Shown piece by piece: positions 3 to 8,355 of a DNA stretch of 8,961 nucleotides. Source of the stretch: Eubacteriales bacterium. GTDB lineage: Bacteria; Bacillota_A; Clostridia; Christensenellales; Aristaeellaceae. The first letter of the stretch is position 1; every line of letters starts with the position of its first letter. The stretch spans positions 1 to 8,961 of the forward strand of contig JAQUXV010000086.1 of NCBI GenBank assembly GCA_028692205.1, given 5' to 3'. The notes beneath the pieces were generated by a model. That model was not told the DNA's origin and made no database searches. It saw only the letters and a list, made by a program, of their open reading frames with translations. The translations under genes were made by a program, and so were the position numbers.

Positions 3-1673
3 CACGTGCTTACGGGTGAAACCGGCGCGGGCAAGTCCATCGTTGTGGACTCGATCAACCTGATGCTGGGGGAACGAGCCGACCGCGGGTTGATCCGCAC
101 AGGCTGCGAAAAAGCGACGGTTGAAGCAATTTTTGATATCGGAGACTGCCCGCAGGTACGGGAACTGCTGGATGCCGAAGCATTGGAGCCGGAAGGAAAC
201 CTGCTGCCCGTAATGCGGGAAATCAGCACCGGCGAACGTAATGTTTGCCGCGTATGCGGGGTAATTGTGCCGGTTGCGCTGCTGAAACAGATATCCGGCT
301 ATTTAGTGGATATTCATGGCCAGCATGAGCACCAGAGTTTGCTGGACGCGAAAAACCATTTGGGCTTTCTGGATTCATTCGGCGACGAAACACACCGAAG
401 GCTGATCGCGGACGTGGGAGAAAAGTATCGTCTCTGGCGGGAAGCCAGTGCAAGCTTCAGCGCGCTTCGCAAGGAGAACGCGAAGCGTGAAAGCCGGATT
501 GCGGAGATTACCACCCTGTGCAAGGAGCTGGATGCGGCGCAGCTGGCCGTTGGGGAAGAGGAAAAACTGATTCGACGGCGTGAAAAGTTGGCCGACGCGG
601 AGAAAATATCCAACGCAATCGAGCTTGCGTATGAGAATATCACCGCCACGGAAGGCGCGCGGCTGGGCGTAACGCCCTTGCTGAAAGAGGCAGCGGAGGC
701 AATGGGGCGCATTGCGGAATACGATCCGCGCTACGCGGCCCTGCACGAGCGGCTTTCTTCGGCGTTTTATGAAGCGGAAGAAATGGGTATTGAGCTTCTC
801 GATTTGAACGAAAGTGAAACTTTCGATCCCGAAGAGAATGATCGGATTCTGGCGCGGCTGGACACCTATCGCCGTTTGGAGAAGCGCTACGGTATGGAAG
901 CGGACGAGCTGGTGGATTATGCCGAGCGCGTAAAGGACGAAATGCGTTCCCTTCATGCCATGGACGACCGTTTGCGTACGGCGGAGACGGCGTTTAAGGC
1001 AAAGCTGGCGGATTATCGCACGGCGGCGGAAGCGCTGACAGAATCACGCATGGAACTGGCCCGTAAATTTGAACATATTATGGAAAGCCAGCTAAGCGAG
1101 CTTGGGATGGGCAGCACGCGTTTTGCCTGCGAGTTTGCTGCGCCTGCGCCCGACCAGAAACGAATGCCCGCGTCGAATGGAGAGGACCATGTGGAATTCT
1201 TTATCGCGCCGAACGTTGGCGAGCCGCTGAAACCGTTGGCGAAAACAGCGTCCGGCGGCGAACTGTCGCGTATTATGCTGGCGATGAAAGCAGCGGGTGC
1301 CGACCGCGCCATGGTGCCTACTATGATTTTCGATGAGATCGACACCGGTATCAGCGGTCGTGTGGCGGGCGTTGTAGCCGAGAAGATGGACGACATCGCG
1401 CGGTACCATCAGGTGATTTGCGTTACGCATCTGGCGCAGATTGCCACGATGGCGGATACGCAATACCGGGTAGAGAAAAACGTGGCGGGCGAACGTACCC
1501 TGACCACGGTAACGGAACTTACGCCCGAACAGCGCGTGGGCGAGATTGCGAGGCTTGTGGGCGCCGATCTGCACCGTGACGACAGCGGTGTTGCCCATGC
1601 GCGAAGCTTGCTTTCGGCATCTGCGGAGCGGAAGAGCCAGAACCGCGAACACGTGGGGCAGGAGCGGCATTAA
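3..1673 (+). CDS. recN: DNA repair ATPase RecN, 5'-truncated by window edge
   Basis: RecN is an SMC-like ATPase that binds DNA ends and acts early in double-strand-break repair by recombination. The reading frame is already open at the left edge and enters directly in the Walker A motif (GETGAGKS), so roughly 30 N-terminal residues lie outside the window. Numbering from the GTG at 6 (not the real start), the visible parts are: Walker A at 4-11; the RecN-typical Q-loop HGQHEHQ at 104-110; a charged central coiled coil from about 130 to 370; the ABC signature SGGE at 416-419; Walker B with D443-E444; and the switch histidine H475 in VTHLAQIA. All ATPase residues are intact. A small oddity is RVCG just before the Q-loop, where the family usually has R-[IV]-N-G. 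The stop is TAA at 1671-1673. The C-terminal tail is short and polar. Identity is certain; the true start cannot be seen. Confidence 0.97.
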   Translation, partial: HVLTGETGAGKSIVVDSINLMLGERADRGLIRTGCEKATVEAIFDIGDCPQVRELLDAEALEPEGNLLPVMREISTGERNVCRVCGVIVPVALLKQISGYLVDIHGQHEHQSLLDAKNHLGFLDSFGDETHRRLIADVGEKYRLWREASASFSALRKENAKRESRIAEITTLCKELDAAQLAVGEEEKLIRRREKLADAEKISNAIELAYENITATEGARLGVTPLLKEAAEAMGRIAEYDPRYAALHERLSSAFYEAEEMGIELLDLNESETFDPEENDRILARLDTYRRLEKRYGMEADELVDYAERVKDEMRSLHAMDDRLRTAETAFKAKLADYRTAAEALTESRMELARKFEHIMESQLSELGMGSTRFACEFAAPAPDQKRMPASNGEDHVEFFIAPNVGEPLKPLAKTASGGELSRIMLAMKAAGADRAMVPTMIFDEIDTGISGRVAGVVAEKMDDIARYHQVICVTHLAQIATMADTQYRVEKNVAGERTLTTVTELTPEQRVGEIARLVGADLHRDDSGVAHARSLLSASAERKSQNREHVGQERH

Positions 1674-2072: not shown

Positions 2073-3464
2073 ATGAGTCTGTTTCACGTTTTCCCCGGCG
2101 GGATCCACCCTATTGAAGGGATGAACGGGAAAGCGGTCACGTCCGTATTGCCGATTACGGAGCTTCCGCAACCGTCACGCGTGGCCATCCCGTTGCAGCA
2201 GCACATCGGCGCGCCCTGTAAAAGCCTTGTTTCCAAAGGCGACAGGGTAAAAGTCGGAATGATGATCGGCGAGCCTGTCGGCTTTGTGAGCGCGGCGGTA
2301 CACGCCAGCGTATCCGGCAAGGTGGTGGGCGTGCAGCCCTGTATCCTCGCGAACGGCACGCAGCAACCCTGCGTGATCATCGACAACGATTTTCAGGATG
2401 AGTGGGTGGAACTCACCCCCGTGGCCGAACCGGACAAGCTGGACGGCAAGATGCTGGCAGATGTGGCGCGAAAAGCCGGGCTGGTTGGCCTGGGCGGCGC
2501 TACCTTCCCGCATGCGGTCAAGTTTTCCCTGCCGCCGGACAAGCCTGTGGATATTCTGGTCCTGAACGGCGCGGAGTGCGAGCCGTATCTTTCCGCCGAT
2601 CATCAGCTGATGCTTGCCAATGCAAAGGAAATCATCGGCGGCGCGCTGGTGGCTAAAAACGCGCTGAAGATCAAAAAGGTAATCGTCGGCATCGAAAACA
2701 ACAAACCCGATGCCATCAAGGCGATGACGGAAGCCAGCGCGGGAGATGAAAGCGTAACCGTAGTCGGCCTGCCTGTGCATTACCCGCAGGGCGGTGAAAA
2801 ACAGCTTGTTTATGCGTTGACGGGGAGAACCGTTAAAGAGGGCGGCCTGCCGCTGGACAGCGGCGTAATCGTCGCCAACGTCGGAAGCACTTACGCGCTT
2901 TACCGCGCGGTATACGAAGGCCGCCCGATTGTGGACCGTGTGGTTACGGTCAGCGGCTGTGTAAAAACGCCCGCCAACTATCTGGCGCGCATCGGCACAC
3001 CGGTGGAATGGCTTTTGGATACATCCGGCGGGCTGTTGCCCAAAGCAAGGGTGCTCCTGTACGGAGGCCCCATGATGGGTATGGCGATCAGCCGTCTGGA
3101 CATTCCCGTTACCAAGGGATGCTCCGGCATTACGGCGCTTGAGAAAGCTTCGGCACTGGAAACGGAAAGCAACTGCATCCGCTGCGGCCGCTGCTCCGAA
3201 GTGTGCCCGATGAAGCTGGTGCCATCGATGCTGGATAAGCTGATGCGCAAGGATATGTTTGAGGAGGCCGAGCGTCAGGGCGTGATGAACTGCATCGAGT
3301 GCGGCGCCTGCACCTGGAGCTGCCCAGCCAAACGCCAGCTTACGCAAAGTTGCCGTACTAGCAAGCGGATTATTACCCAGCGCCGCAGAGCGGAAGCGGC
3401 TAAGAAAAAGGCGGAAGAAGAAAAGAAAAAGGCCCAAGCGGCCCTGAAAGAGGAGGCGAAGTAA
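2073..3464 (+). CDS. rnfC: Rnf complex subunit RnfC (NADH-binding, FMN/Fe-S)
   Basis: RnfC is the peripheral cytoplasmic subunit of the Rnf ferredoxin:NAD+ oxidoreductase, where NAD(H) reacts. At 463 aa it is near clostridial length and lacks the long repeat extension of E. coli RsxC. Residues about 1-110 match the RnfC barrel/sandwich start (GGIHP, QHIGAP, VHASVSGKV). The NuoF-like nucleotide/FMN part shows GLVGLGGATFP at 136-146 and NGAECEPY at 165-172. Two [4Fe-4S] motifs follow: C368-x2-C371-x2-C374-x3-C378 and C407-x2-C410-x2-C413-x3-C417. Residues 437-463 form a Lys/Glu/Ala-rich tail. ATG 2073 is chosen because it gives the family's N-terminus and has AGAGGAAGG (2054-2062) and AGAGG (2065-2069) upstream. 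It is the first gene of the operon; rnfD starts 1 nt after its stop. Confidence 0.96.
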   Translation: MSLFHVFPGGIHPIEGMNGKAVTSVLPITELPQPSRVAIPLQQHIGAPCKSLVSKGDRVKVGMMIGEPVGFVSAAVHASVSGKVVGVQPCILANGTQQPCVIIDNDFQDEWVELTPVAEPDKLDGKMLADVARKAGLVGLGGATFPHAVKFSLPPDKPVDILVLNGAECEPYLSADHQLMLANAKEIIGGALVAKNALKIKKVIVGIENNKPDAIKAMTEASAGDESVTVVGLPVHYPQGGEKQLVYALTGRTVKEGGLPLDSGVIVANVGSTYALYRAVYEGRPIVDRVVTVSGCVKTPANYLARIGTPVEWLLDTSGGLLPKARVLLYGGPMMGMAISRLDIPVTKGCSGITALEKASALETESNCIRCGRCSEVCPMKLVPSMLDKLMRKDMFEEAERQGVMNCIECGACTWSCPAKRQLTQSCRTSKRIITQRRRAEAAKKKAEEEKKKAQAALKEEAK

Positions 3465-3465
3465 C

Positions 3466-4455
3466 ATGCAGCGCAAACTGGTCGTATCCTCTTCCCCGCA
3501 CCTGCGCAACGAGGCGGTTTCCACGCAAAGGCTGATGCTGGACGTGATTATCGCCATGCTGCCCACTGCCGTCGCGAGCGTGATTCTTTTCGGCGGGGAC
3601 GCGTTGCGGCTTATTCTGGTCGCGGTGATTACCGCTGTGGCGGCGGAATACGTTTATCAAAAGGCAACCAAGCAAAAAGTAACGGTTTCCGACCTGAGCG
3701 CCGTGGTTACCGGTATGCTGCTGGCGTTTAATATGCCCGCAAGCGCGCCGTGGTGGATGGCGATGGTCGGTTCCTTGATCGCGATCATTCTGGTGAAACA
3801 GATGTTTGGCGGCATGGGACAGAATTTCATCAATCCGGCATTGGCGGCCCGCACGATCATGATGCTGTCGTGGACGTCGCTGATGGCCGCGAACGTGCTG
3901 CCGCACATCGGCCAGTGGATTACGCCGGTTTCGGCGGACGCGGTGGCATCCGCGACGCCGCTGGGTGAGAATCCCGCGTCGTATACCCTGTGGCAGCTGT
4001 TTTCCGGCAACATTCCCGGCATGCTGGGGGAAACCTGCAAACTCACGCTGCTGCTGGGCGGTATTTACCTGATCGTACGCCGTGTAATCGACTGGCGCAT
4101 TCCCGTTTCCTTCATTGTTACAGCAATCGTTCTGTTCTGGCTTCAGACGGGTGCGCTATATTCCACGGATTCGCAAAACGTTCTGTATCAACTGTTCAGC
4201 GGCGGGCTGATCCTGGGTGCGTTCTTTATGGCGACCGATTACGTTACCAGCCCCATTACGCCTCTGGGCCGCGTTATCATGGGCGTGGGCTGCGCGCTGT
4301 TCCTGTTTGTGATCCGCTTTTATAACGGCTCGTATCCCGAGGGCTGCTCGTTCGCTATCCTGTTTATGAACGTGCTTACCCCGCTGATCGACAAGCTGAC
4401 GACGCCTAAGCCGTTCGGCTATGTGAAGCCTGCCAAGGCCGGCAAGGAGGTGTGA
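3466..4455 (+). CDS. rnfD: Rnf complex membrane subunit RnfD (flavin-carrying)
   Basis: RnfD, a homologue of NqrB, is a polytopic membrane subunit that carries a covalently bound FMN and is linked to ion translocation. The 329-aa protein has the family N-terminus with SPH at 10-12, about nine to ten hydrophobic segments, and the conserved GQNFINPALAARTIM block. The flavin-attachment threonine is most likely T164, in D158-A-V-A-S-A-T164-P-L. The Asp at -6 and the Ala-Thr are kept, but the usual S/T-G before A-T is replaced by A-S, so covalent attachment is inferred rather than shown. The ATG at 3466 follows AGGAGG at 3451-3456 by 9 nt and the rnfC stop by 1 nt. In typical clostridial operons rnfG comes next; here rnfE follows immediately. 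The polar C-terminus ends in a short Lys-rich stretch. Confidence 0.95.
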   Translation: MQRKLVVSSSPHLRNEAVSTQRLMLDVIIAMLPTAVASVILFGGDALRLILVAVITAVAAEYVYQKATKQKVTVSDLSAVVTGMLLAFNMPASAPWWMAMVGSLIAIILVKQMFGGMGQNFINPALAARTIMMLSWTSLMAANVLPHIGQWITPVSADAVASATPLGENPASYTLWQLFSGNIPGMLGETCKLTLLLGGIYLIVRRVIDWRIPVSFIVTAIVLFWLQTGALYSTDSQNVLYQLFSGGLILGAFFMATDYVTSPITPLGRVIMGVGCALFLFVIRFYNGSYPEGCSFAILFMNVLTPLIDKLTTPKPFGYVKPAKAGKEV

Positions 4456-4457
4456 GC

Positions 4458-5099
4458 ATGAGCGAGAAAAAGAGCATTAAAGCCGTTTTCATGAACGGTA
4501 TTCTAAAGGAAAACCCGACGTTCCGCCTGCTGCTGGGCATGTGCCCGACGCTGGCTATTTCCACAGCGGTTACGCAGGGCATCGGCATGGGTCTGGCCAC
4601 GACATTCGTGCTTGTGTTCAGCAATCTGGTGATATCGCTTCTAAGAAACATCATCCCGGAAAAGGTGCGCATTCCCGCGTTCGTGGTGGTTATCGCGACG
4701 TTTGTGACCATTGTGGACCTGATTATGAAGGCGTTCCTTCCGTCGCTCAGCGCCTCGCTGGGCCTGTACATTCCCCTGATCGTGGTAAACTGCATTATCT
4801 TTGCGCGTGCCGAGTCTTTCGCGTCCAAAAACCCGCCGCTGTCCGCGCTAACCGATGGACTGGGCATGGGCCTTGGTTTCACGCTGTCGCTGACGCTGCT
4901 TTCCGCCGCGCGTGAAGTGTTCGGCAGCGGCACCTTCCTGGGTGTGCAGGTGATGCCCGCGAGTTACCACCCCATGGCGATCATCATTCGCCCTCCGGGG
5001 GGCTTTATCATGCTGGGTCTGCTGCTGCTGGCGGTGAACGCCGTGGTTAAGGCAATCCAGAAGCATAAGGCTGCCAAGGCGAAGGAGGAGATTGCATGA
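4458..5099 (+). CDS. rnfE: Rnf complex membrane subunit RnfE
   Basis: RnfE (NqrD family) is a six-helix membrane protein that pairs with RnfA in inverted topology. Together they hold a [2Fe-2S] centre within the membrane, which takes electrons from RnfB. The 213-aa product shows the family start (NGILKENPTFRLLLGMCPTLA) and both expected cysteines, C29 in LGMCPTLA and C112 in VVNCIIFARAE. The conserved AREVFGSGTFLG block lies late in the protein. I chose ATG 4458 because AAGGAGGTG (4444-4452) ends 5 nt before it; an in-frame GTG at 4452 overlaps that ribosome-binding site and is unlikely. The ribosome-binding site lies inside the end of rnfD, whose stop ends at 4455, so the two are tightly coupled. 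The stop overlaps the rnfA start (ATGA). The tail is Lys/Ala/Glu-rich. Confidence 0.95.
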   Translation: MSEKKSIKAVFMNGILKENPTFRLLLGMCPTLAISTAVTQGIGMGLATTFVLVFSNLVISLLRNIIPEKVRIPAFVVVIATFVTIVDLIMKAFLPSLSASLGLYIPLIVVNCIIFARAESFASKNPPLSALTDGLGMGLGFTLSLTLLSAAREVFGSGTFLGVQVMPASYHPMAIIIRPPGGFIMLGLLLLAVNAVVKAIQKHKAAKAKEEIA

Positions 5100-5683
5100 G
5101 CACATTGCTGTTGATCATCGTAGGCGGCGTGCTGGTAAACAACTTCGTCATGTCGCAGTTCCTGGGCATCTGCCCGTTCCTGGGCGTATCTAAAAAAACG
5201 GAAACAGCGCTGGGCATGGGCATGGCCGTTACGTTTGTTATGGCGATCGCGTCCCTGTTCACGTATGTTGTGCAGCACTATCTGCTGATTCCGTTGAACC
5301 TGGAATACATGCAAACTATCGCGTTCATCCTGATTATCGCGGTGCTGGTGCAGACGGTGGAAATCGTACTGAAGAAGATCAGCCGGTCGCTGTATCAGGC
5401 GCTGGGCGTGTATCTGCCGCTGATTACCACCAACTGCGCGGTGCTCGGCGTTGCAATTAACAACACCACCGCCGTGGAGGGCGGCTACAACCTTATTCAG
5501 TCTGTGGTCAACGGCACAGCCGGCGCGCTGGGCTTCACACTTGCGATTGTGGCGTTTGCGGCGATCCGTGAACGTATGGCCGTCAGCAACCTGCCGAAAT
5601 GGATGGATGGGTTCCCCGGCGCGCTGATCGCCGCGGGGCTGATGTCCATCGCTTTTCAGGGCTTTTCCGGAATGATCCACTGA
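5096..5683 (+). CDS. rnfA: Rnf complex membrane subunit RnfA
   Basis: RnfA (NqrE family) is the partner of RnfE: a six-helix membrane subunit contributing two cysteines to the shared intramembrane [2Fe-2S] centre. The 195-aa product has normal family length. It carries VNNFVMSQFLGICPFLG with C26 near the N-terminus, and YLPLITTNCAVLG with C114 in the fourth segment region. The later AAIRERM and GFPGALIAAGLMSIAFQGF blocks also fit the family. The start overlaps the rnfE stop as ATGA, with GGAGGAG at 5084-5090 upstream. It is the best-conserved subunit in this window and shows no irregularity. rnfB follows after 16 nt. Confidence 0.96.
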   Translation: MSTLLLIIVGGVLVNNFVMSQFLGICPFLGVSKKTETALGMGMAVTFVMAIASLFTYVVQHYLLIPLNLEYMQTIAFILIIAVLVQTVEIVLKKISRSLYQALGVYLPLITTNCAVLGVAINNTTAVEGGYNLIQSVVNGTAGALGFTLAIVAFAAIRERMAVSNLPKWMDGFPGALIAAGLMSIAFQGFSGMIH

Positions 5684-5699: not shown

Positions 5700-6935
5700 A
5701 TGACCGGTATTTTAATCGGGACGGGCGTTCTGGCGGCTGTCGCACTGATTTTCGGCTTGCTGCTGACGCTTGTGAATAAGGCTTTTTCCGTGCCTTCCGA
5801 CCCTAAACGGGATCAGATTCGTGAAGCGCTTCCGGGCGCGAACTGCGGCGGATGCGGGTTTGCGGGCTGCGACGCGCTGGCGGATGCCATCGCTGCGGGA
5901 AAGGCGCCCGCCAATGCCTGCCCCGTAGGCGGGATCGACGTTGCCAAACGGGTGGCGGCGATTATCGGCGCGGATGCGGGAGCAGAGGAAACCCGCAAGG
6001 TGGCGACCGTCGTCTGCCAGGGTACCATTGACCGCTGCAAAACAAAGTTCATCTACCACGGCATTCAGGACTGTGTGGCCGCGACGCTGGTAAACGAAGG
6101 CAACCGCGCCTGCCAGTATGCTTGTTTGGGGCTGGGCACCTGTGTGCGCGCCTGTAAGTTCGACGCCATTCATATTGACGAATACTCCAAGATCGCCAAA
6201 GTGGACACGGATAAGTGTACCGGCTGCGGCGCGTGTGTGGCTGCCTGCCCGAAAAAGGTGTTGGATTTGCAGCCGGTCACCCTTCCGGTACGCGTGCTGT
6301 GCCGCGCGGCAGAAGAGGGCGTGCTGGTAAGCGACAACTGTAAAATCGGCTGCGTGGGCTGCGAGCTTTGTATGGATGCCTGCAAGTTTGACGCGATTAC
6401 CATGAAGAACCATCTGCCCATAATTGATCGCGACAAGTGTACCGGTTGCATGATGTGCGCCGAGGTTTGCCCGACGGAGGCCATGTGGGGCGATTTCGAC
6501 AATCGCCGCATCGCGCTGATCGACCGCGACCTCTGCATTGGCTGCGGCATTTGCAAAAAAATCTGTCAATTTGAGGCGATTTCCGGCGAGCGCAAGAGCG
6601 TGCATGAAATCAATGAAGCCTGCACAGGCTGCGGCCAGTGCGTGCCCAAGTGCCCCAAGAAGGCGATCACTTTGCCGGTTCGCGAACATGTGCGTGATGC
6701 AAACGCCAAGGTTGGCACCTCCGAAGAGGTAGCGGCCATCCCGAAGCCCGTCGTTGTGCAGAGCGCCGAGGCGAAAAAGGAAGCGCCGAAAGTGCAGCCG
6801 AAACCTGAAGCCGAAGCGAAGGCAGCCGAGCCCGCAAAGGCAGCGGAACCTGCTGTTAAGCCGGAGGAAAAAGCGGAACCGGCAGAAAAGCCCGAAATCA
6901 AACCCGAAACGAAGAAAGAAAAGGGCGAAGCCTAA
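5700..6935 (+). CDS. rnfB: Rnf complex subunit RnfB, long multi-cluster ferredoxin form
   Basis: RnfB is the membrane-anchored, cytoplasm-facing iron-sulfur protein that accepts electrons from reduced ferredoxin. An N-terminal membrane segment (about residues 4-26) precedes a 4Fe-4S domain with C49, C52, C57 and C74. A cysteine-rich region follows (C106, C113, C125, C138, C142, C147, C151), then ferredoxin-like sets at C173/176/179/183, C214/218/221/224/228, C247/250/253/257, C279/282/285/289 and C308/311/314/318. That is enough for about seven [4Fe-4S] clusters. Residues about 345-411 form a low-complexity Ala/Pro/Lys/Glu tail. At 411 aa it is about twice E. coli RsxB and longer than RnfB proteins I know from clostridia. 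ATG 5700 follows AAGGAGGG (5683-5690), which overlaps the rnfA stop. No frameshift is visible. It is the last rnf gene; proC starts 51 nt later. Confidence 0.95.
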   Translation: MTGILIGTGVLAAVALIFGLLLTLVNKAFSVPSDPKRDQIREALPGANCGGCGFAGCDALADAIAAGKAPANACPVGGIDVAKRVAAIIGADAGAEETRKVATVVCQGTIDRCKTKFIYHGIQDCVAATLVNEGNRACQYACLGLGTCVRACKFDAIHIDEYSKIAKVDTDKCTGCGACVAACPKKVLDLQPVTLPVRVLCRAAEEGVLVSDNCKIGCVGCELCMDACKFDAITMKNHLPIIDRDKCTGCMMCAEVCPTEAMWGDFDNRRIALIDRDLCIGCGICKKICQFEAISGERKSVHEINEACTGCGQCVPKCPKKAITLPVREHVRDANAKVGTSEEVAAIPKPVVVQSAEAKKEAPKVQPKPEAEAKAAEPAKAAEPAVKPEEKAEPAEKPEIKPETKKEKGEA

Positions 6936-6986: not shown

Positions 6987-7808
6987 ATGAAACTGGGCTT
7001 TATCGGAGCAGGCAATATGGGTACGGCGATCCTGAAAGGCGTACTGGAAAGCCGCTTTCTGCCACCGGAGGAAATCGCCGTATACGATGTGAACCGGGAA
7101 CAAAGTGAGCGGTTCGCCGCAGGGCAGCCCGTTTATATTGCAAAATCGGAAGAAGAACTGATCTCCTCGGTTGATTGCGTTCTGTTGGCTGTGAAACCCG
7201 TATATCTGAAAGACGTGCTCATAAAAGCGCGCCCATTTGCGAAAGGCAAGAATTTCATTTCGATTGCGGCAGGCTGGACGTTTGCGATGCTTACCGAAAT
7301 TCTGAACGCGGAAAGCGGCGCACACGTACTGCGCGTAATGCCAAACACACCCGCGATGGTCGGGGAGGGCTTCACCGCGCTGTGTGAGCAAACCACGCTT
7401 TCAGAAGAGACGTTCACGTGGGCGAAGAATTTGTTCCAAACGCTGGGCGAAGTGGCGGTGCTGCCGGAGCGGCTGTTCGATGCCATCGTGGCCCTTACAG
7501 GCAGCAGCCCCGCCTATGTGTTCATCTTTATTGAAGCGATGGCGGATGCGGCGGTACAGCTTGGCATTCCCCGGAACCTGGCGTACCGCGCGGCGGCGCA
7601 GGCGGTGCTTGGCTCCGCTAAAATGGTGCTGGAGACGAACGAACACCCGGCGAAGCTGAAGGACATGGTGTGTTCGCCCGGCGGAACAACCATAGACGCG
7701 GTTGCTTCGCTGGAGCGGGATGGTTTCCGCAGCGCGGTCATTGATGCGATGGTCGTTTGCGCCGAAAAGAGCCGCGCCATGGCGTCGGATTCCGGCAGGA
7801 AAGCCTGA
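6987..7808 (+). CDS. proC: Pyrroline-5-carboxylate reductase ProC
   Basis: ProC catalyses the last step of proline synthesis, reducing 1-pyrroline-5-carboxylate to L-proline with NAD(P)H in the cytoplasm. The 273-aa product has normal family length. It starts with a Rossmann fold (G7-x-G9-x-x-G12 in FIGAGNMG) and has VMPNTPA with P119-N120-T121-P122. The all-helical dimer domain carries the substrate region TGSSPAY (171-177) and CSPGGTT (229-235). ATG 6987 is preceded by GAGGAGG at 6972-6978, 8 nt upstream. It lies 51 nt after rnfB with no terminator and 10 nt before rnhA, so it probably shares the rnf transcript at least in part. Linkage to Rnf could be metabolic (NADH supply or proline-based redox) or accidental. 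Confidence 0.96.
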   Translation: MKLGFIGAGNMGTAILKGVLESRFLPPEEIAVYDVNREQSERFAAGQPVYIAKSEEELISSVDCVLLAVKPVYLKDVLIKARPFAKGKNFISIAAGWTFAMLTEILNAESGAHVLRVMPNTPAMVGEGFTALCEQTTLSEETFTWAKNLFQTLGEVAVLPERLFDAIVALTGSSPAYVFIFIEAMADAAVQLGIPRNLAYRAAAQAVLGSAKMVLETNEHPAKLKDMVCSPGGTTIDAVASLERDGFRSAVIDAMVVCAEKSRAMASDSGRKA

Positions 7809-7818
7809 GGAAGATGAG

Positions 7819-8355
7819 ATGACGCAAACGAGCGATAGCACTCGCAAAAGTGTGCAAATATACACGGACGGGGCCTGTTCCGGCAACCCGGGGCCGGGCG
7901 GCTGGGCAGCGATACTGGATTATAACGGAAAAACCAAGGAACTGTCCGGCCATATGTCCGGCACCACCAATAACCGCATGGAAATATTCGCGGTTATCAG
8001 CGGGCTGGGCGCGCTGAAAGAACCCTGCAATGTGGATGTGTATTCCGATTCCGCCTATACCATCAACGCTTTCAACCAGCACTGGATTGATAACTGGCAG
8101 AAAAACGGCTGGTTGACCAGTGAAAAGAAGCCGGTTGAAAACAGCGATTTGTGGAAACTGCTGCTGCAGATTATACGGGCGAAAAAGCATAACGTCACCT
8201 TCCATAAGGTGAAAGGGCACGCCGACCATCCGCAAAACAACCGCTGCGACGAACTGGCACGAGCCGCCATTAAGGAATACCGGCGGATGAACGGCGAAGA
8301 GGACGATGAAGCCGTGAAAGAAACGAAGTCGGAAACGTCCCCAAAGAAGGCATAA
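7819..8355 (+). CDS. rnhA: Ribonuclease HI
   Basis: RNase HI cuts the RNA strand of RNA-DNA hybrids, removing R-loops and primers. The 178-aa product keeps all catalytic residues: D17 in YTDGACSGNPGPGGW, E55 in NNRMEI, D77 in YSDSAY, and D144 in NNRCDELA. H134 in KVKGHADHP corresponds to the E. coli catalytic-loop histidine. The Trp-rich basic handle (HWIDNWQKNGW) of E. coli-type enzymes is present. Residues about 155-178 are an acidic/Lys-rich tail beyond the fold. The frame is open upstream, but ATG 7819 is chosen because GAGGAAG (7807-7813) lies 5 nt before it and it places the conserved core correctly; earlier starts would overlap proC deeply. It is the last gene before the terminator-like hairpin. 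Confidence 0.95.
   Translation: MTQTSDSTRKSVQIYTDGACSGNPGPGGWAAILDYNGKTKELSGHMSGTTNNRMEIFAVISGLGALKEPCNVDVYSDSAYTINAFNQHWIDNWQKNGWLTSEKKPVENSDLWKLLLQIIRAKKHNVTFHKVKGHADHPQNNRCDELARAAIKEYRRMNGEEDDEAVKETKSETSPKKA

Follow-up and report, generated by a model that had tools for sequence, protein, structure and literature searches.

Rnf is one of the chief pumps by which many anaerobes conserve energy, and RnfG serves as its moving flavin switch. The window analysed here, a stretch of 8,961 nucleotides from an Eubacteriales bacterium, contains an rnf operon in which rnfD runs straight into rnfE, and it raises the question of whether the encoded complex works without RnfG or obtains this subunit from a gene elsewhere in the genome.

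Gene organisation of the rnf locus

All genes of the window lie on the plus strand, in the order recN-rnfC-D-E-A-B-proC-rnhA. The 3' part of recN (3..1673) precedes rnfC, as recN does in many relatives too, and proC (6987..7808) and rnhA, the gene for RNase HI (7816..8355), are also the downstream neighbours in nearer relatives. The operon comprises rnfC (2073..3464; TIGR01945, 514.7 bits against an NCBIfam cut-off of 245.95), rnfD (3466..4455; TIGR01946 and PF03116, 304.9 bits against an NCBIfam cut-off of 207.05), rnfE (4458..5099; TIGR01948, 241.2 against 213.4 bits), rnfA (5096..5683; TIGR01943, 258.9 against 229.3 bits) and rnfB (5700..6935; TIGR01944, 153 against 68.7 bits); all five genes are thus present, each above its curated NCBIfam cut-off. 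RnfB carries several 4Fe-4S motifs and has a low-complexity C-terminal tail of about 70 residues, rich in Ala, Lys, Glu and Pro (window 6700-6935). Opposite rnfC, on the minus strand, an antisense open reading frame of 463 amino acids (2175-3566) probably results from the high GC content at third positions of codons.

The rnfD/rnfE junction, which has no rnfG, spans 4445..4460 on the plus strand. A strong AGGAGG (4445-4450) stands before rnfE and lies inside the rnfD coding sequence, the rnfD stop codon TGA occupies 4453-4455, and the rnfE start codon ATG is found at 4458-4460; rnfE could alternatively start at a GTG at 4452, which overlaps the stop codon of rnfD. The sequence confirms what the preliminary description had reported of this junction, namely an rnfD stop ending at 4455, an rnfE start at 4458 and a ribosome-binding site within rnfD. 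Its further claim, that no frame of the window encodes an RnfG-like protein, was upheld by profile, motif and Pfam scans. An unfiltered RnfG profile search of all the window's stop-to-stop frames of 30 amino acids or more, 164 in number, gave a best E-value of 0.31; the custom RnfG profile used in this study was built from six single-domain RnfGs. The motif [ST]GA[ST] occurs in none of the window's six frames, and the looser [STA]GA[ST] occurs once, antisense within 2178-3653, where no RnfG match is found. Pfam detected no FMN_bind domain in the eight window proteins scanned, and no rnfG was found within the operon in the window.

Comparison of gene order with close relatives, as had been proposed earlier, showed that rnfD passes directly into rnfE in the fetched rnf regions of 11 genomes as well (G073, G157, G030, G120, G156, G072, G138, G119, G079, G029 and G099). 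These loci (L153-L160 and L164-L166) come from separate assemblies, and recN, proC or rnhA likewise adjoin rnf in most of them. Because the junction is common to 11 relatives, it is neither a matter of chance nor a likely assembly slip. An assembly error in which a segment with rnfG was lost between 4430 and 4480 would have to contend with the identical D-E junction in these separate assemblies, most with the same neighbours, and is almost inconceivable.

Flavin and iron-sulphur sites of the core subunits

According to the available text of PMC12174285, Rnf has one covalent FMN on RnfD and one [2Fe-2S] centre between RnfA and RnfE. The RnfD of the window contains the motif DAVASATPLG with Thr164 (codon at 3955..3957, plus strand), the equivalent segments being DGVTTATPL in Clostridium tetanomorphum (7zc6) and DTVTTATPL in Acetobacterium woodii (9eri); Thr164 was paired by motif because phmmer gaps or shifts the flavin-acceptor loop of RnfD. 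The lack of SGAT in the window had raised the suspicion that RnfD has lost its flavin site; this was ruled out, since both C. tetanomorphum and A. woodii have TTAT at this position. The threonine of this motif is presumably the one that carries the covalent FMN in Rnf. Cys29 and Cys112 of RnfE align with cysteines of the solved RnfE, as do Cys26 and Cys114 of RnfA with those of the solved RnfA, and we take these paired cysteines to hold the membrane [2Fe-2S] centre. RnfD matches PF03116 only and has no fused NAD-binding domain (PF00175). With its flavin Thr and cluster Cys kept, the Rnf core looks functional.

In some relatives RnfD reaches 480-628 amino acids, with a flavin-acceptor loop of 174-303 amino acids against 34 in the window. 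The expanded loop consists of tandem repeats rich in Thr, Ala and Glu (for example EATTEATGAATGET), echoing the acceptor site EATSVATPL, and the pattern [DE]AxxxAT occurs in such loops 9-22 times (overlaps counted), against a mean of 0.4-1.1 in shuffled sequences. The expansion is present in five of the 120 RnfD matches listed (P0081, P0094, P0108, P0109 and P0110) and also in G029 and G099 (L165:7186-8628 and L166:7726-9612), where the repeats look as if RnfD too had become a flavin chain. It may represent either a flavin array or mere low-complexity expansion.

Distribution of rnf gene orders among relatives

Among the 120 RnfD matches listed, those nearest to the window come from uncultured Clostridia, with Candidatus Limiplasma as the source name of three. 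A contig scan for rnf loci yielded a sample of at least 80 loci, in most of which rnfG is located between rnfD and rnfE. In eight of them (L001, L002, L005, L010, L022, L051, L062 and L067) rnfE follows rnfD with no room for rnfG; L062 begins 353 bases before rnfD, rnfG is upstream of rnfC in L010 and L051 and between rnfC and rnfD in L067, and a further locus, L043, ends too early for its junction to be called. In the sediment Bacillota genome of L022 (G013), the sole RnfG match is distant, single-domain and unlinked (L092); this genome is not counted in the set of relatives considered below.

The locus L002, with 70% RnfD identity, led to genome G002, and 150 genomes were drawn from the G002 group. 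An RnfD-type match was present in 133 of the 150, 18 of these matches being only distant (37-43% identity, in frames of 519-664 amino acids; G085, the only one inspected, has no clear RnfD). The gene-order comparison leaves out G020 and G100, the latter having 42 RnfD residues matched. The closest genomes by RnfD, among the 150 drawn, are G157 (84% identity) and then G073 (81%). In the RnfD tree of 115 rows, which left out L106 and L107 as duplicates and L272 for want of a clear RnfD, the window groups with G157, G073 and G030 (99/93), and this group is nested in a 12-row clade (100/96), none of whose members has rnfG between rnfD and rnfE.

The order C-D-G-E-A-B was found in 27 of the 115 rows, G-C-D-E-A-B in 50 and the G-less C-D-E-A-B in 23, including the window, with 15 rows unassigned. 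Ten of the unassigned rows have rnfD running into rnfE and a short sequence upstream of rnfC. A longer fetch for those ten revealed rnfC without upstream rnfG in eight (recN precedes it in seven, and 6 kb of other sequence in G131), the contigs of G048 and G001 ending just before or in rnfC. The relatives in which rnfD runs into rnfE without rnfG between them, including the ten re-fetched, thus number 32, the window not counted. In 29 of these 32 the sequence upstream of rnfC was seen and has no rnfG; the contigs of G073, G001 and G048 end inside or just before rnfC, where an upstream rnfG is possible. A sister group, accounting for 50 of the 115 rows of the RnfD tree, carries an rnfG with an FMN domain, or often with several, immediately before rnfC or close to it, with L167:10242-12779, L217, L220, L224, L228 and others as examples of the order G-C-D-E-A-B.

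RnfG encoded at another locus

The search for rnfG and apbE that the preliminary description had suggested for the whole genome was run on the relatives. A full-profile match to TIGR01947, covering the model from position 4 or lower to position 177 or higher, was found at another locus in 31 of the 32 genomes without rnfG between rnfD and rnfE, and apbE (PF02424) was matched in seven of the nine relatives searched for it, the exceptions being G157 and G002. Counting PF04205 matches was discarded as a test: they occur in 12 of 12 genomes, some with more than 15 FMN domains. The TIGR01947 cut-off is 102 bits, and multi-domain proteins have their scores summed; this value asks too much of a single domain here, because the in-operon RnfG of G023 scores 93.8. 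Six of eight unlinked RnfGs, taken as whole proteins, pass it (G073 with 184.1, G138, G030, G156, G029, and G120 with 102.5), and the RnfG of G072 (94.0) and the second copy of G073 (90.9) fall below. The two genes share contig C112 in G138, with rnfD at 52980-53960 and rnfG at 108361, about 54 kb apart; in 29 other genomes the contig numbers of rnfD and rnfG differ, and for G005 the contig number of rnfD is not given.

Neither an rnfG match nor an apbE match was obtained in G157, the genome closest to the window. This genome measures 1.7 Mb, compared with 3.9 Mb for G073, and is divided into many contigs (rnfD is on C123); from its small size, the assembly is probably incomplete. In the genus-level group of G073, five of the six genomes have a full-profile RnfG, the sixth being G157. 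Two of these five carriers, G139 without any RnfD match and G100 with its partial one only, indicate that the drafts of this group have holes.

Seventeen genomes that came from the same draw but gave no RnfD match served as a control, and a full-profile RnfG was detected in seven of them, against 31 of the 32 with a G-less operon (Fisher p = 2e-5). G145 and G091, among those seven, have rnfC above the cut-off, and their rnf operon is probably split or incomplete. The presence of RnfG alone is no proof of partnership, because five of the 15 genomes that lack both an rnfD match and an rnfC above the cut-off also carry a full-profile RnfG; one of these five, G139, may simply be incomplete. RnfG goes with the rnf operon but is not confined to it.

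Two full-profile RnfGs occur in five of the 31 genomes, at L173/L174 in G073, L178/L179 in G156, L181/L182 in G119, L188/L150 in G029 and L189/L149 in G099. Each of these genomes has a single rnfD, the paired RnfD rows of G029 and G099 being halves of one gene.

Domain structure of the unlinked RnfG and its neighbours

By the custom profile, the unlinked RnfGs carry 1 to 9 FMN domains, for example four in G073, seven in G138 and G030, nine in G039 and one in G120 and G072. At least one copy with two or more FMN domains is present in 29 of the 31 genomes, some proteins being cut by contig or fetch ends, and a single-domain RnfG only is found in G120 and G072; on this mostly multi-FMN character the preliminary description was silent. 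In the RnfG of G073 Pfam recognises four FMN_bind stretches. Its residues 6-171 align with the RnfG of C. tetanomorphum, including the membrane helix and the FMN site DAISGATISS, and its three further domains have AGAT where the first has SGAT. A single-domain RnfG is also encoded by G073. The two RnfG-bearing relatives nearest to the window, G073 and G030, have multi-flavin RnfGs, and the window species' own RnfG might be single- or multi-flavin.

In six of the nine genomes checked (G073, G030, G120, G072, G138 and G119), apbE either adjoins an rnfG or is no more than 3 kb away from one. In G156 it is on another contig, and G002 has RnfG without an apbE match. Of the 20 trans loci fetched, 12 have a gene of one and the same 12-member family near rnfG; Pfam identifies one member as ApbE, and five more (from G030, G120, G072, G138 and G119) coincide with PF02424 matches. 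In G120 (L177:1872-2830), the unlinked rnfG comes immediately after genes for a NusG domain II protein and heptaprenyl diphosphate synthase component I, and apbE is divergent.

Origin of the unlinked RnfG

In an RnfG tree of 63 domains, 26 of the 27 trans-labelled RnfGs and one upstream-of-rnfC RnfG form a clade (98/92), which sits beside the in-operon RnfG of Christensenella UBA7703 (98/89). A tree of 84 rows, which left out L092, 13 distant in-operon rows and, for want of a full domain, L222 and L236, again grouped the trans and upstream-of-rnfC types with the same Christensenella UBA7703 row (94/84), apart from the other 30 in-operon RnfGs. In both trees L087 (G014) is labelled trans; G014 also has a truncated FMN gene upstream of rnfC, and L087 was left out of the AU test of RnfG.

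RnfG could have reached its present locus by replacement: the in-operon rnfG would have disappeared, and its role would have passed to another RnfG lineage, related to those found upstream of rnfC in a sister group; this is a variant of the explanation by RnfG in trans and not its opposite. The RnfG trees join the trans RnfGs with the upstream-of-rnfC ones, whereas the RnfD tree joins the G-less genomes with the in-operon ones, apart from the upstream-of-rnfC group (100/97), and this conflict hints that the in-operon copy gave way to a second RnfG lineage. However, a tree in which 36 trans and 20 in-operon RnfGs were constrained to form one group was not rejected (p-AU 0.178), and one with the G-less and upstream-type RnfD rows so constrained was rejected only weakly (p-AU 0.029). 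The tree groups were moreover named after the trees had been seen, and RnfG domains are short and fast-evolving. Replacement is a tentative and somewhat doubtful account.

Proposed working of the complex

The locus is best explained, with good confidence, as encoding an ordinary ferredoxin:NAD+ oxidoreductase (Rnf) core with RnfG supplied in trans. The relatives combine a recN-rnfC-D-E-A-B-proC-rnhA operon with a membrane-anchored RnfG encoded at another locus, and the genome of the window would do as they do; to judge by these relatives, its own rnfG is probably elsewhere. ApbE would flavinylate both RnfD and the unlinked RnfG, whose N-terminal RnfG domain would carry electrons between the RnfA/E [2Fe-2S] centre and the FMN of RnfD, just as it does in Rnf complexes elsewhere. 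Extra FMN domains, where present, could form a branch from the complex to outside acceptors, and unlinking would let the cell set the amount or kind of RnfG apart from the core.

The preliminary description had offered two readings, that rnfG moved elsewhere or that the complex works without it, with altered electron flow or lost ion pumping. The unlinked RnfG of 31 of the 32 relatives speaks for the former; the latter gained no support, the core residues being kept. A complex truly devoid of RnfG, in which RnfD takes its electrons straight from the RnfA/E cluster or ion pumping is lost, would agree with the lack of rnfG in the window and with the failure to find rnfG or apbE in the closest relative. 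However, this relative, G157, is a small draft in many contigs, the other 31 of the 32 relatives have RnfG at another locus, and RnfD keeps its flavin-acceptor Thr, which would be of little use without ApbE; such a complex is therefore quite improbable. The occurrence of two RnfGs in five genomes suggests another possibility, that of one Rnf core with exchangeable RnfG heads, rnfG being swappable and separately regulated. A single-flavin RnfG would then close the loop from ferredoxin to NAD+ and pump ions, and a multi-flavin RnfG would divert electrons outward, turning the core into an extracellular-reduction device. This elaboration is unlikely. An Rnf core with RnfG in trans carries a warning in itself, since an operon 'missing rnfG' should not be read as a G-less enzyme. 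The unlinked, sometimes duplicated and mostly multi-flavin RnfGs also provide natural variants for testing whether a single core is able both to reduce NAD+ and to pass electrons outward.

Comparison with known systems

In C. tetanomorphum and A. woodii rnfG presumably lies between rnfD and rnfE, and the window differs from them in having no rnfG there. RnfD, RnfE and RnfA nevertheless align over most of their length with those of the C. tetanomorphum (7zc6) and A. woodii (9eri) Rnf, and the cluster Cys and the flavin-Thr motif are kept. Multi-flavinylated RnfGs within RNF clusters, including those of Christensenellales, are described in the available text of PMC8238504, which suggests for them a second path to outside acceptors and also mentions a multi-heme subset. 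Among 236 RnfG-like frames of the present study, one has a single CXXCH motif and none has more. The RnfGs of the window's relatives resemble those of the available PMC8238504 text in having further FMN_bind domains behind an N-terminal RnfG domain, but differ in that the operon is G-less and RnfG is encoded at another locus. RNF clusters were assigned there, according to the same text, by RnfB near FMN-binding or ApbE genes, and surveys that recognise Rnf in this way, from flavinylation genes close by, are likely to miss complexes of the present kind.

Nqr/Rnf-like two-subunit complexes, as presented in the available parts of PMC8238504, PMC10979944 and PMC11334425, likewise combine an RnfD-type membrane subunit with an RnfG-type protein. 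Unlike them, the window has the full set of C, D, E, A and B, and its RnfD retains the flavin Thr and lacks a fused NAD-binding domain. For other Firmicutes, 'rnfCDEAB' is written in PMC10215811 and PMC11456536, whose accessible text does not comment on rnfG. The literature searched, which included few subscription papers and no supplements, yielded no description of an rnf operon that has its rnfG in trans. Multi-flavin RnfG in Christensenellales is already known, and what appears to be new here is an rnf operon with RnfG in trans.
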